From Natrinema halophilum (GTDB lineage: Archaea > Halobacteriota > Halobacteria > Halobacteriales > Natrialbaceae): DNA of 64,000 nt. The stretch's first letter is position 1. Every line of letters starts with the position of its first letter. The DNA lies in NCBI RefSeq assembly GCF_013402815.2, contig NZ_CP058601.1, positions 1,612,001-1,676,000 on the forward strand, written 5' to 3'. Shown piece by piece: positions 44,161 to 51,056 of this stretch. The position numbers and the translations under genes were made by a program. The notes beneath the pieces were generated by a model that worked only from the letters and a program-made list of their open reading frames with translations, did not search any database and was not told the origin of the DNA.

Positions 44161-44628
44161 ATGGCCCGTTCGAACGGACAGACGGATCAGCCACGAACCA
44201 TCTTGGTCGTGGAGGACAATCCGGGCGATGCGAGACTTATACGGGAGGTGTACGACGCGCTGGATCTCACCGAAAGACTTCGCATCGTCTCGACCGGGTC
44301 CGACGCACTCGACTTCGTAAACCAGCGTGACGAGTACGCCGACGCTCCAGAGACGGACCTCGTTATCCTCGATTGGCACCTTCCGGACATGGGCGGGAGT
44401 GACATTTTGGAAGAACTGAACGCCGACCCCGCCCACAATCACATTCCCGTTATCGTCTCGACCGGACAGCTTGCCGAACAGGAAGTTCGCAAGGTATATG
44501 AAAAAAACGCGAATGCCTGCATCACGAAACCGAACGGGCCCGACGAACTCAAGGAGATCATTCTATCGATCGAGGCGTTCTGGGTGTCAACGGCCAGGCT
44601 TCCAACTGTTGACGACGGTAACCGGTAA
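44161..44628 (+). CDS. stand-alone response regulator (Rcp-like receiver)
   Basis: The 155-residue receiver has the acidic pair E18/D19, phospho-acceptor D71 (VILDWHLPD), S100/T101 and K123 (ITKP). The long loops (NQRDEYADAPETD, NADPAHNHIPVI) are typical of the CheY-like Rcp1/Rcp2 group that partners cyanobacterial phytochromes and many haloarchaeal PAS kinases. No output domain is attached. A second such receiver lies at 46479-46919 and a kinase relic at 47380. Confidence 0.92.
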   Translation: MARSNGQTDQPRTILVVEDNPGDARLIREVYDALDLTERLRIVSTGSDALDFVNQRDEYADAPETDLVILDWHLPDMGGSDILEELNADPAHNHIPVIVSTGQLAEQEVRKVYEKNANACITKPNGPDELKEIILSIEAFWVSTARLPTVDDGNR

Positions 44629-46478: not shown

Positions 46479-46919
46479 TCAGTCCTCTCGCATAATTGCT
46501 AATCGAAACGACTCGAACGACTGAATTACCTCGACGAAGTCGCCGGTGTCAACCGGTTTTTCGAGGACTGCATCTTCATCCGAATCATGATCGAGATCTC
46601 GAGATTCGATCAATCTTTCGTCCACTCCGGTCAGGACGATCACCGGGACATGATCCAACTCGGGATGGTGTTTGATTTCGTGTAGAACGTCTTCACCTCC
46701 AACTTTTGGCAGGTTCAGGTCTAGCAGTACAATGTCCGGTCGAGGAGCGTCCTCGTACTCTCCACGTTGATGGATGAAATCGAGCGCTGCTCGGCCATCG
46801 GTGACGGTGCGAAGCGGGTTCGTGATGTTGCCGTCCGAGAACGCTTCTTCGATGAGGCGAACATCACCAGGATTGTCTTCTACTAGCAGTATTATCGCCT
46901 CTGGTGACCCGGTGCCCAT
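46479..46919 (-). CDS. stand-alone response regulator (Rcp-like receiver)
   Basis: The 146-residue receiver has E14/D15, phospho-acceptor D67 (VLLDLNLPK), T97 and K121 (LEKPVD). It shares the Rcp-type loop (QRGEYEDAPRPD, KHHPELDHVPVIVL) with the receiver at 44161-44628. It has no output domain. In haloarchaea these receivers often pair with PAS-containing kinases; a decayed kinase gene follows 460 bp to the right. Confidence 0.92.
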   Translation of the reverse strand: MGTGSPEAIILLVEDNPGDVRLIEEAFSDGNITNPLRTVTDGRAALDFIHQRGEYEDAPRPDIVLLDLNLPKVGGEDVLHEIKHHPELDHVPVIVLTGVDERLIESRDLDHDSDEDAVLEKPVDTGDFVEVIQSFESFRLAIMRED

Positions 46920-47379: not shown

Positions 47380-48130
47380 TCAGATATCGGATTCCCTTCC
47401 AACTGGGAGCGTGAACGAGAACGTCGCACCCTCCCCGGGTTCGGACTCGACCCAGGTCTTGCCGTCGTGGCGTTCGACGATCCGCTCGCAGAGCGCGAGG
47501 CCGATGCCCATCCCATCGTACTCCTCGCGGCTGTGGAGTCGGTCGAAGATCGTGAATACCCGCTCGTGGTCGGCTGGATCGATGCCGATTCCCTCGTCTT
47601 CGACCGAGATCACACACTTTCCGCCTCGGCGCTCGGCGCTGACGTAGACCCGCGGGGACTCGTCGCCGCTGTAGGTGATGGCGTTGCCCAGCAGGTTCTG
47701 GAACAATTGCCGGAGTTGACTACTGTCACCTTCGACGCACGGGAGGTCGTCGGCCGTGATCTCGGCATCGCTCTCTTCGATCTGCAATTGGAGGTCCGCG
47801 AGCACGTCGTCATGCACGGCATTCAGGTCAATCGGTTCGAACGGATCGCCCCGCGTCTCGATCCGCGAGTACTCGAGTAAGGCATCAATCATATCCCGCA
47901 TCCGCTCGGACCCGTCGACAGCATAGGCGAGGAACTCCTCGCCGTCCTCGTCGAAGGCGTCGCTGTAGCGCTTCTCGAGCAACTGCAGGTAGCTGGTGAC
48001 CATCCGCAAGGGTTCCTGGAGGTCGTGTGACGCGGCATATGCGAACTGTTCGAGGCGTTCGTTGGACTCCTTGAGTTTTTGTTCGTATTTTTTCCGTTCG
48101 GTGATATCAGTCTGGACGACAACCCCACGA
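47380..48130 (-). pseudogene. 3' part of a PAS histidine kinase cut off at the tnpB element
   Basis: The frame holds the end of a PAS domain (VVVQTDITERKKYEQKL), HisKA (AYAASHDLQEPLRM) and a complete HATPase_c (NLLGNAI, DEGIGID, GIGLALC). Upstream it enters the IS200/IS605-type element at about 48131, and the sequence on the far side of the element (beyond 49500) shows no kinase coding. The N-terminal sensor part is therefore lost. The remaining 209 codons from ATG 48009 could in principle make a short kinase core, but without a start signal. It closely resembles the C-terminal part of the kinase at 32928-35306. Confidence 0.8.
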
Positions 48131-48135
48131 TTGAG

Positions 48136-49389
<1,254 letters not shown>

Positions 49390-49456
49390 ATCTTATATGT
49401 AAGACTGGTGTTTCTTAAACAGTGGGGAGTCGGCTTGCTACTGTAGCGTGGTTTGA

Positions 49457-49685
<229 letters not shown>

Positions 49686-49707
49686 TGCGCTGGCTGGGAT
49701 TTGAACC
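49686..49707 (-). repeat. 22-bp copy of the tRNA-Gly 3' end (candidate attachment site)
   Basis: The 22-bp sequence TGCGCTGGCTGGGATTTGAACC is identical to the 3' end of the tRNA-Gly gene (49806-49827), covering the 3' acceptor strand and T-loop. Such partial copies are typical of tyrosine-recombinase attachment sites (attR) left by integrative elements in tRNA genes. Confidence 0.75.
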
Positions 49708-49805
49708 ACGCCCAGACGGTCACCTCGCTTCGCTCGGTGCTGCGACTGGTCTGATTCAAACCCAGATTCGATTTCTGTCGCTCCCGAAGTTGGTCGCGAC
49801 AGAAA

Positions 49806-49876
49806 TGCGCTGGCTGGGATTTGAACCCAGGTTGTGACCATGGCAAGGTCACGTGATACCACTACACTACCAGCGC
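49806..49876 (-). tRNA. tRNA-Gly (anticodon GCC)
   Basis: On the minus strand the gene folds as acceptor GCGCTGG/CCAGCGC, D-arm, anticodon stem TGACC/GGTCA with loop TTGCCAT (anticodon GCC), T-stem CTGGG/CCCAG with TTCAAAT loop, and discriminator A at 49806. It has no encoded CCA and no intron. The 22-bp copy of its 3' end lies 120 bp downstream. Confidence 0.93.
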
Positions 49877-50104
49877 CCCGTTGCACTCATATCTACTCCC
49901 GGAGGGATGTATAAGGGTTGCGAATCAACCCGGCATCGACATGCTGGAGCATGGCGATTCTCGGAGAGGGCGACCGGCGACTCGACGTCAGAAGTGGCAA
50001 TAAGTTCCGGTTTCTCGCAGTGGTCGACGGCGATCGGTAGTCGATCGAGAGTGTGTGTCCGTTCGGCACGAATTCGCGAGTGTGAGGCGTTCACAGCCGG
50101 AATC

Positions 50105-50130
50105 GAATCCGCTATTCTTTTAAGACCCTC
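50105..50130 (+). promoter_or_regulatory. TATA-like promoter for ribosomal cluster
   Basis: The block TATTCTTTTAAGA (50112-50124) sits about 57-69 bp before the ATG at 50181, in the 300-bp spacer (49877-50180) between tRNA-Gly and the first gene of the ribosomal cluster. No other gene was seen in that spacer, so this is a sensible place for the cluster promoter. A transcript starting about 25 bp downstream would have a leader of about 35 nt. Confidence 0.4.
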
Positions 50131-50180
50131 TCCGCAATAGATCGCTACAGTCTAGTGACGCGGCGCCGAAGCGTTTCGGC

Positions 50181-51056
50181 ATGACCGTCAGCGTACTCGT
50201 GCCGTCGTCGCTCACCCGGGAAGCCGAGGACAAACGCGAGGCAACTCGCAAACTCGGATACGTCGCCCGCGCGGCGACTATTTTCCGGGCCGATCGTCTG
50301 GTCGTCTATCCCGATCGGGACGGCGAAACCGGACGATTCGACGGCGGGTTCGTAAACACCGTCTTGCGGTACGCCGCAACGCCCCCGTACCTTCGCAACG
50401 AGGTCTGGGGGATGCGGGACGAACTGGAGTACGCGGGCGTCTTGCCGCCGCTCCGCGCGGTGTCACAGACCGGCTCCGAATCGAACGGTTCGGGGTCGTT
50501 AAGACAAGGGATCGTGACCGAGGTCGGACCTGAAGGGCGCGTCCGGGTCAATTGCGGCATGCAACACCCGATCTCCCTCAACGTACCGCCGAAAATGGCG
50601 GTCGAGGAGGGAGAGCGCGTGACCGTCAGGATCTCTTCGCGACGACCGGTCCGGGCGAAGCTCGAGGCCGTCCCCCTTCCGGGGCTCACAATCGAGCAGA
50701 CGGACCTGCAGGCAGCACTCGGCCGTGAGGACGCTGGCGTCCGTATCGCGGCCTCCCGATTCGGTGCAGAACTTACCGTCGGGCGGCTCGAGACGCTGGC
50801 CGGACGCGTCGACCGTGACGGGATGACCGTCGCGTTCGGCGCGCCCGAGAGAGGGCTGCCGGCTATCCTCGGAATCGAGGCATCTGCCGTCGGCGCTGCA
50901 CAGGACGCAGCCGGCGACGGGGATGACGGAGTCGAACCCACTGCCGATCCGGGGTTCGACCTCTGGCTAAACACGGTTCCGGATCAGGGAAGCGAGGTCG
51001 TGCGAACGGAGGAGGCTCTGTTCGCGACCCTCGCTCCCCTCTCACTGAGAGAGTGA
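50181..51056 (+). CDS. SPOUT-fold RNA methyltransferase-like protein
   Basis: The 291-residue protein has a SPOUT (trefoil knot) layout: RAADLVVYPD-like N-terminal strand (FRADRLVVYPDRDGE), an inserted beta-domain around 115-165 (GIVTEVGPEGRVRVNCG, VTVRISSRRPVRAKLEAVPL), and the C-terminal cofactor half (VAFGAPERGLP, then FDLWLNTVPDQGSEVVRTEEALFATLAPL). It matches the archaeal/eukaryal SPOUT1 (C9orf114) group. It ends 4 bp before rpl3, so it opens the ribosomal operon and may modify rRNA. Confidence 0.85.
   Translation: MTVSVLVPSSLTREAEDKREATRKLGYVARAATIFRADRLVVYPDRDGETGRFDGGFVNTVLRYAATPPYLRNEVWGMRDELEYAGVLPPLRAVSQTGSESNGSGSLRQGIVTEVGPEGRVRVNCGMQHPISLNVPPKMAVEEGERVTVRISSRRPVRAKLEAVPLPGLTIEQTDLQAALGREDAGVRIAASRFGAELTVGRLETLAGRVDRDGMTVAFGAPERGLPAILGIEASAVGAAQDAAGDGDDGVEPTADPGFDLWLNTVPDQGSEVVRTEEALFATLAPLSLRE

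Follow-up and report, generated by a model that had tools for sequence, protein, structure and literature searches.

A tRNA-tail repeat behind tRNA-Gly(GCC) of Natrinema halophilum and a possible family of tRNA-matched cassettes in Halobacteria

The tRNA-Gly(GCC) locus and its 120-bp unit

The stretch of DNA analysed here (the window; 64,000 nucleotides of contig NZ_CP058601.1 from Natrinema halophilum) carries a tRNA-Gly(GCC) gene on the minus strand, so that a nearby copy of its 3′ end lies 3′ of the gene. The sequence TGCGCTGGCTGGGATTTGAACC stands at 49686-49707 and again at 49806-49827 with 0 mismatches, the copies being 120 bp apart with 98 bp only between them. An earlier note on the window had pointed out this 22-bp copy of the tRNA 3′ end, and its description holds: the pair is exact, 0.00 such pairs are expected by chance (100 shuffles), which rules out a chance origin, and the genome (4.84 Mb on 3 contigs) contains no other such pair. 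The search for further copies that the note had proposed returned no other exact one in the genome, and the two further sites with at most 3 mismatches belong to tRNA-Glu(TTC) and tRNA-Gly(TCC), at the 3′ end of each. When copies were compared with their own tRNA over 92 stretches, the first base differed in 32, the last in 13 and the others in 0-8. The first of the 22 bases is therefore unreliable, and the true repeat comprises 21 nt, from G53 of the tRNA to the discriminator N73. A lineage-specific compensated base of the tRNA is also present in the copy in 14 of 16 informative cases (manual count). The features of the locus are the following.

49806-49876, minus strand: tRNA-Gly(GCC) gene (ARAGORN; Rfam tRNA family)
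49806-49826, minus strand: 21 nt inside the tRNA-Gly(GCC) gene, the same as the copy (exact repeat and ARAGORN)
49686-49805, minus strand: whole unit, 120 bp, directly 3′ of tRNA-Gly(GCC) (sequence, inverted repeats, ssDNA fold)
49772-49805, minus strand: hairpin A, GTCGC type (inverted repeat 49771-49781/49796-49806 and fold; a related motif lies behind tRNAs class-wide)
49755-49765, minus strand: anti-T arm, CTGGGTTTGAA (fold; complementary to the T-loop/T-stem part of the copy, with one extrahelical base)
49708-49754, minus strand: core hairpin B, cluster B2 (fold and clustering)
49686-49706, minus strand: 21-nt copy of tRNA-Gly G53 to A73 (repeat search and comparison with own tRNAs; the reported 22-mer ends at 49707)

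In the sense of the tRNA, the unit thus runs through hairpin A (TTTCTGTCGC...GCGACAGAAA in the window), a linker, the anti-T arm, core hairpin B and the tRNA tail copy. Folded as single-stranded DNA, the 120 bp form two hairpins (−28.3 kcal/mol, z −4.09; 0 of 200 dinucleotide shuffles fold as well), with a single extrahelical base in the stem between arm and copy. Unit length across the collection ranges from 72 to 219 bp with a median of 129, which is too short for ordinary genes. An open reading frame across the region was considered and rejected, because spacings in relatives, e.g., 112, 128 and 130, are not multiples of 3. Within window positions 49400-50200, tRNA alone scores above its Rfam gathering score, and four other families stay far below their cut-offs.

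A gene for a TnpB/OrfB protein (IS605/IS1341-type; window 48136-49389) adjoins the unit. The 119 bp beside it (49400-49519) recur at 98% and 93% in the same genome (G000:C1:580419 and 1890854), and the TnpB element is therefore probably multi-copy. Also beside TnpB lies a histidine-kinase remnant (47380-48009, minus strand) with a HATPase domain and a weak HisKA domain, and receiver-only proteins are encoded at 44161-44628 and 46479-46919. No integrase was found among the eight neighbouring ORFs of the window that were scanned. The earlier note had suggested that the repeat borders this accessory patch to its left; against such a border speak the absence of a third copy from the genome and the different DNA that occupies the site in two close relatives, whose flanks are about 95% alike.

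Distribution of tRNA-tail units

In the window genome, the neighbourhoods of 45 tRNA matches were inspected, and the last 21 nt of each tRNA were sought within 400 nt downstream, a score of at least 16/21 being taken as a pass. A copy of the tRNA's own tail follows about one third of the loci (14 of 45), namely those for Met, Gly-TCC, Lys-TTT, Lys-CTT, Gly-GCC, Val-TAC, Arg-CCT, Tyr, Glu-TTC, Pro-TGG, His, Ser-TGA, Arg-GCG and Leu-TAG; at the other 31, no copy reaches 16/21 within 400 nt. In the upstream control, one of 45 loci passes, because a second, tandem tRNA-Asp gene lies there, and shuffled downstream DNA gives a best score of 15/21. The best sufficiently different foreign tail reaches 16-17 at 4 of the 45 loci, and the copies behind Gly-TCC (16), Lys-TTT (17) and His (17) are thus less secure than those scoring 18-21. 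The tRNA-Leu(TAG) gene (L107, G000:C1:1476424-1476508, plus strand) is followed by three perfect serial tail copies at 114, 243 and 355 nt.

The 22-mer was recovered at no more than one mismatch in 119 of 125 genomes of the own family, a count to which the tRNA itself contributes, and many of these genomes hold at least two copies. The extra copies lie downstream of tRNA-Gly(GCC), in the orientation of the tRNA and mostly about 85-160 bp away, among loci fetched because they hold the tRNA tail and in a spacing search that covered the downstream side. In many relatives of the own genus, the tRNA-Gly(GCC) gene is present twice, at a distance of about 300-600 bp (L036, L040, L044, L047-L050, L057, L058, L060, L061 and L064); in several of these relatives, a tail unit follows each gene. 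One genome, G101, has two tRNA-Gly(GCC) genes on contig L122 and likewise on its main contig, L123.

One type of hairpin A was followed through the class with a search pattern allowing up to two mismatches. Of 391 Halobacteria genomes, 99 contain it; by manual count, 74 of these belong to the own family and 25 to four other families. The reversed pattern matched 0 of the 391, and the motif occurred in 0 of 241 genomes outside the class. Among 30 motif loci fetched from the class sample, the motif stands 3-7 nt past a tRNA end in 19 and past a tail copy in seven; of the other four, three lie behind tail-like sequence lacking a called tRNA and one fits neither description. Exact motifs were also located in genomes with names (Natrialba, Natrinema, Natronorubrum, Natronococcus, Haloarculaceae and others, which may overlap the class sample in species): of the 30 found, 22 stand behind a tRNA end and the other eight behind a tail copy, the latter being judged by the T-loop motif just upstream. 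Units are present in at least three Halobacteria families. In two genomes of other families, where the units have other hairpins, tail copies of at least 18/21 were found at five (G241) and four (G398) of the 15 best-scoring tRNA loci of each, these being the best 30 of 110 matches, with one neighbouring full tRNA gene excluded.

Matches were also seen on plasmids. The region of tRNA plus unit matches Natronorubrum bangense plasmid NZ_CP031306.1 (L113, an 828-kb record) at 73%, and the tRNA there is Gly(TCC), not GCC. Natrinema thermotolerans plasmid CP031304.1 (L114, a 987-kb record) matches the unit region at 70% (query 6-153); no tRNA is called nearby, and the match thus resembles a unit detached from any tRNA gene. 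At a tRNA-Gly(TCC) locus in which one tRNA is called (L178), a second tail copy lies 2.5 kb downstream in a tRNA-like context with its own unit-like repeat.

Interchangeable hairpin modules

Behind tRNA-Gly(GCC), 91 distinct units fall into 16 clusters of hairpin A and 19 of hairpin B, which occur in 52 combinations. Clusters were formed greedily at 72% identity, and the split between A and B is unreliable for units with a low anti-T score (e.g., L016 and the first tRNA of L064). The set omits duplicate or off-target loci (L001-L004, L013, L077, L113, L005 and L010, the last two being replaced by L125 and L124), counts identical units once and was cleaned from 92 stretches, one of which (L036, third) runs into a second full tRNA. 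Units within one array are usually of different types, and simple tandem duplication is therefore rejected.

For other tRNAs, 90 stretches at 23 tRNA species were collected (139 distinct tRNAs in mixed loci that were partly motif-selected; ARAGORN calls longer than 131 bases omitted). Three of the 90 are neighbouring full or partial tRNA genes (the first stretch of L169, and those of L186 and L214), and after cleaning 76 units remain at 22 tRNA species other than Gly(GCC). The core matches Gly(GCC) units at E<1e-4 in 62 of these 76; five rounds of mononucleotide shuffling each gave 0 of 76. Cores therefore travel or are common to tRNA types, and arm and copy match the local tRNA. Over 167 units, the anti-T arm fits its own tRNA with a mean score of 9.7, as compared with 7.7 for foreign tRNAs and 5.9 in shuffled spacers; it beats every sufficiently different foreign tail in 58 units and fails to beat half of them in 21.

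Turnover between close relatives

Close relatives were compared in alignments and in a tree built from the neighbouring gene, which encodes an RNA methyltransferase. At this site, the window genome carries a single unit. Of the two relatives whose flanks are about 95% alike, one carries two units, both of other types, and the other retains nothing but a decayed unit. A 159-bp unit of G054 is precisely missing in G063 and G051, and a 130-bp unit of G061 is precisely missing in G065, in both cases with a 21-nt repeat and flanks that can be aligned on both sides. These cases are not polarisable on the tree, so that precise loss by recombination between repeats fits as well as gain. By eye, decay is not clearly stronger in second copies than in first ones, and accordingly no insertion polarity, with the proximal unit younger, was seen in the Gly(GCC) arrays. 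In two further pairs (G060/G059 and G069/G068), hairpin B is kept and hairpin A differs, the break falling near the anti-T arm. Identity between units of the same type exceeds that of the neighbouring gene in 37 of 74 pairs, five of 27 within genera and 32 of 47 between genera, the latter comparison being biased by the choice of same-type units (clusters at 72%); one between-genus pair has 92% in the unit and 77% in the gene.

Constraint on pairing

In 30 sequences, hairpin A has a covariation score of 0.171; shuffling gives 0.104, and sliding gives no more than 0.089. Among the 30 sequences, 13 double changes fall at one outer pair that the search pattern does not include. On the other side, each of the three outermost pairs fails to form in 15-21 of the 30 sequences, and further pair types do not rise above shuffles. 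Mismatches in the stems of units divide into G·T and A·C at 22 : 28, versus 62 : 11 in the tRNA stems of these loci (Fisher p 3e-6), although units are related to each other and the counts are not independent. By stem, the ratio is 6 : 8 in hairpin A, 13 : 9 in the stem of arm and copy and 3 : 11 in core B (p 0.06). The count covers Gly units with no more than two mismatches, artefact stretches included, and uses approximate tRNA stem coordinates. The lack of a tRNA-like G·U bias in unit stems argues for a constraint at the level of DNA, and pairing seems to be kept, though not as RNA in the sense of the tRNA. Of 142 folded units, 53 have a one-base bulge on the copy strand, 89 have none there, and nine have one on the anti strand; copy positions 7-8 hold 47 of 56 bulges.

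Viral contigs and the search for a mobiliser

Three IMG/VR contigs hold the 22-mer, L110 (at 12913), L111 (minus strand) and L112 (at 1008), none of which contains an intact tRNA-Gly. Their match to the tRNA extends over about 44 nt from the anticodon arm on (ACCTTGCCATGG...GCGCA), whereas the units share G53 to N73 only, and in L110 and L111 unit-like hairpins lie beyond the tRNA junction. These contigs are likely junctions of integrated elements at tRNA-Gly(GCC). Judged by their sequences, they fit an integration that used the same tRNA but cut it differently, which would leave the units as chromosomal flank. The exact hairpin-A motif has 0 matches in IMG/VR, and the unit has no match in the phage collection, neither search thus pointing to a vector. 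A mobilising enzyme, sought as an integrase among the eight neighbouring ORFs of the window, and an autonomous relative were not found. Among the loci examined later (mostly 3-8 kb, up to 14 kb), no long element bounded by tail copies was recognisable; distant tail copies there are further tRNA copies, full or partial, or further units.

Origin of the repeat

Since units occur at many tRNAs, are of interchangeable types and differ between relatives, the repeat in the window is best read as a member of a family, not as the scar of one lost virus. The reading that we prefer, with a probability of about one half, is that it forms the distal end of a gene-less cassette from a tRNA-tail family of Halobacteria, gained by means of a recombinase acting in trans and lost by recombination between repeats. 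Each cassette is composed of hairpin A, the anti-T arm, core hairpin B and a copy of the host tRNA from G53 to N73. This anatomy is shown by the sequences above, as are the fit to the particular tRNA, the occurrence at many tRNAs in at least three families, the reassortment of modules, the precise presence or absence of whole units between close relatives and the retention of pairing with no RNA wobble signature. For the gain of cassettes, its enzyme, intermediate and direction or polarity, we infer the following course from comparison of sequences. A trans-acting site-specific recombinase would place the cassette beside a tRNA gene by targeting the T loop and 3′ end; the recombination site of the cassette itself may be the B hairpin in its folded form, in which an extrahelical base is frequent. 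Each cassette ends in the same tail, and the tRNA would for this reason be left intact. Loss and shuffling would proceed by recombination between the tandem 21-bp copies and between similar junctions of A and B.

An unlikely alternative, which dispenses with a dedicated enzyme, is that old palindromic DNA was diversified by homologous recombination, allelic exchange between strains, repeat-mediated deletion and palindrome-templated correction. Short repeats can indeed account for the loss of units and the reassortment of A and B, the presence/absence cases have no polarity, and deletions mediated by repeats are described for Haloquadratum in the excerpts available of PMC3119063. This explanation nevertheless leaves open where a new tRNA-matched copy and its arm come from, and it sits poorly with a motif confined to tRNA 3′ ends at 30 of 30 loci in named genomes and 26 of 30 in the class sample. 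A role at the level of RNA appears improbable: the unit would be a structured tRNA trailer in which the anti-T arm can pair with either the tRNA or the copy, and it would thereby govern folding, termination or 3′ processing. The covarying stems, the strong folding and the position of units in the sense direction of the tRNA at the loci examined are as such a trailer would predict, but unit stems have no excess of G·U, which is strong in the tRNA stems of these loci, and no Rfam family other than tRNA passes its cut-off at the locus. The tail copy is moreover missing at 31 of 45 loci of the own genome and behind the same tRNA in the close relatives G063, G051 and G065.

It seems highly improbable that the units are scars of proviruses or plasmids targeted to tRNAs, each being the remnant of an attP arm after loss of its element, which is the interpretation of the earlier note in a generalised form. 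That note had seen in the repeat the footprint of tRNA-directed integration, and a direct repeat of a tRNA 3′ end is indeed of the kind left by insertions; archaeal integrases that target the anticodon loop, the T loop and the 3′ end of tRNA genes are reported in the excerpts available of PMC8371274, and the viral contigs carry half of tRNA-Gly(GCC). Its suggestion of nested attachment sites is borne out insofar as serial copies exist in relatives, and a spacer shared by all close relatives, which it had named as evidence to the contrary, was not found, the spacer being highly variable. The scar of one lost element is another matter: relatives have other units at the same site, own-tail copies recur at 14 of 45 loci, and the stretch that the viral contigs have in common with the tRNA is longer, beginning in the anticodon arm, and these contigs lack the exact motif of hairpin A. 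What the comparison of the tRNA-Gly locus in relatives proposed in the note reveals are other, gene-less units rather than one element; the earlier interpretation as a whole is partly supported. Scars would also leave unexplained the uniform anatomy of two hairpins and the cores common to many tRNAs. An insertion like that of Cas1 or a casposase, with target duplication and the tRNA as leader, is barely plausible. In the excerpts available of PMC6614799, the casposase of Aciduliprofundum boonei shows a preference for the tRNA-Pro 3′ end and depends on the motif TCAAATC in the leader. It is thus another integrase that reads such a sequence, and the motif is also T-loop sequence of the tRNAs here; yet the duplication reported there measures 14-15 bp and lies 8 bp downstream of the motif, as opposed to 21 nt that include the T-loop motif, and by eye the whole unit has no evident terminal inverted repeats.

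If the cassette reading is correct, some of the apparent junk or integration scars behind haloarchaeal tRNAs would belong to one coherent, fast-evolving family of tRNA-matched cassettes. It would then become testable what moves the cassettes, why cells tolerate copies of the tails of essential tRNAs and whether folded-strand recombination of the integron kind occurs in these archaea. For annotators, a short tRNA-tail repeat in Halobacteria alone is no evidence for a lost prophage. Open-access full text in PMC yielded no published description of such units among the matches listed (titles and abstracts), subscription papers and preprints lying outside this scope, and tRNA-tail cassettes are apparently a widespread, undescribed family.

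Comparison with known systems

The spacers consist of recurrent hairpin types, unlike the unique and unrelated spacers of a CRISPR array, which sets the units apart from CRISPR. They share with SMR-A of Haloquadratum a haloarchaeal host, a length near its ~110 bp, the lack of a transposase and the formation of hairpins. As described in the excerpts available of PMC3119063, SMR-A has inverted terminal repeats, causes no target duplication and targets palindromes of IS605-type elements and PATEs; the present units sit behind tRNAs, have a 21-bp direct repeat and lack inverted ends of the whole unit, by eye, and hence do not belong to it. Casposons likewise take a tRNA 3′ end and a motif of the T-loop type as target, and according to the excerpts of PMC6614799 they make a 14-15-bp duplication, have terminal inverted repeats and encode Cas1. 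The units differ from them in the 21-bp repeat, in a length too short for cas1 and in ends that are not inverted repeats (by eye). Integration into tRNA genes by tyrosine recombinases, as outlined in the excerpts of PMC8371274, resembles the units in its direct repeat from the T loop to the tRNA 3′ end and in the tRNA left intact. The units are about 130 bp long and gene-less, contain no integrase, form two hairpins and occur at many tRNAs per genome; at tRNA-Gly, the direct repeat of the 3′ end expected of a provirus or plasmid is present, and an integrase between the repeats and shared att boundaries were not found.

A further parallel, by analogy, is offered by integron attC sites and clusters of integrase-less cassettes, which the units resemble in tandem arrangement and turnover and perhaps, given that bulges favour the copy strand but 89 of 142 folded units have none there, in the form of the hairpin. 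In attC sites, the hairpin is imperfect, its extrahelical bases favour one strand, and the core reads GTTRRRY. In nearly all units, the copies begin with GTTC, the fourth base being C and not R, and the GTTCRA of the units thus departs from this core. The units also differ from integron cassettes in that they hold no gene and have no known integrase, none being found among the eight neighbouring ORFs, and in that their arm matches the neighbouring tRNA. It is tempting to speculate, although we regard it as doubtful, that Halobacteria possess a cassette system of their own, in which tRNA genes would act as attachment sites, single-stranded DNA folded like attC and equipped with a strand-biased extrahelical base and a tRNA-matched arm would be the substrate of a putative recombinase, and the arrays of hairpins that follow the tRNA genes of each genome would remain changeable.
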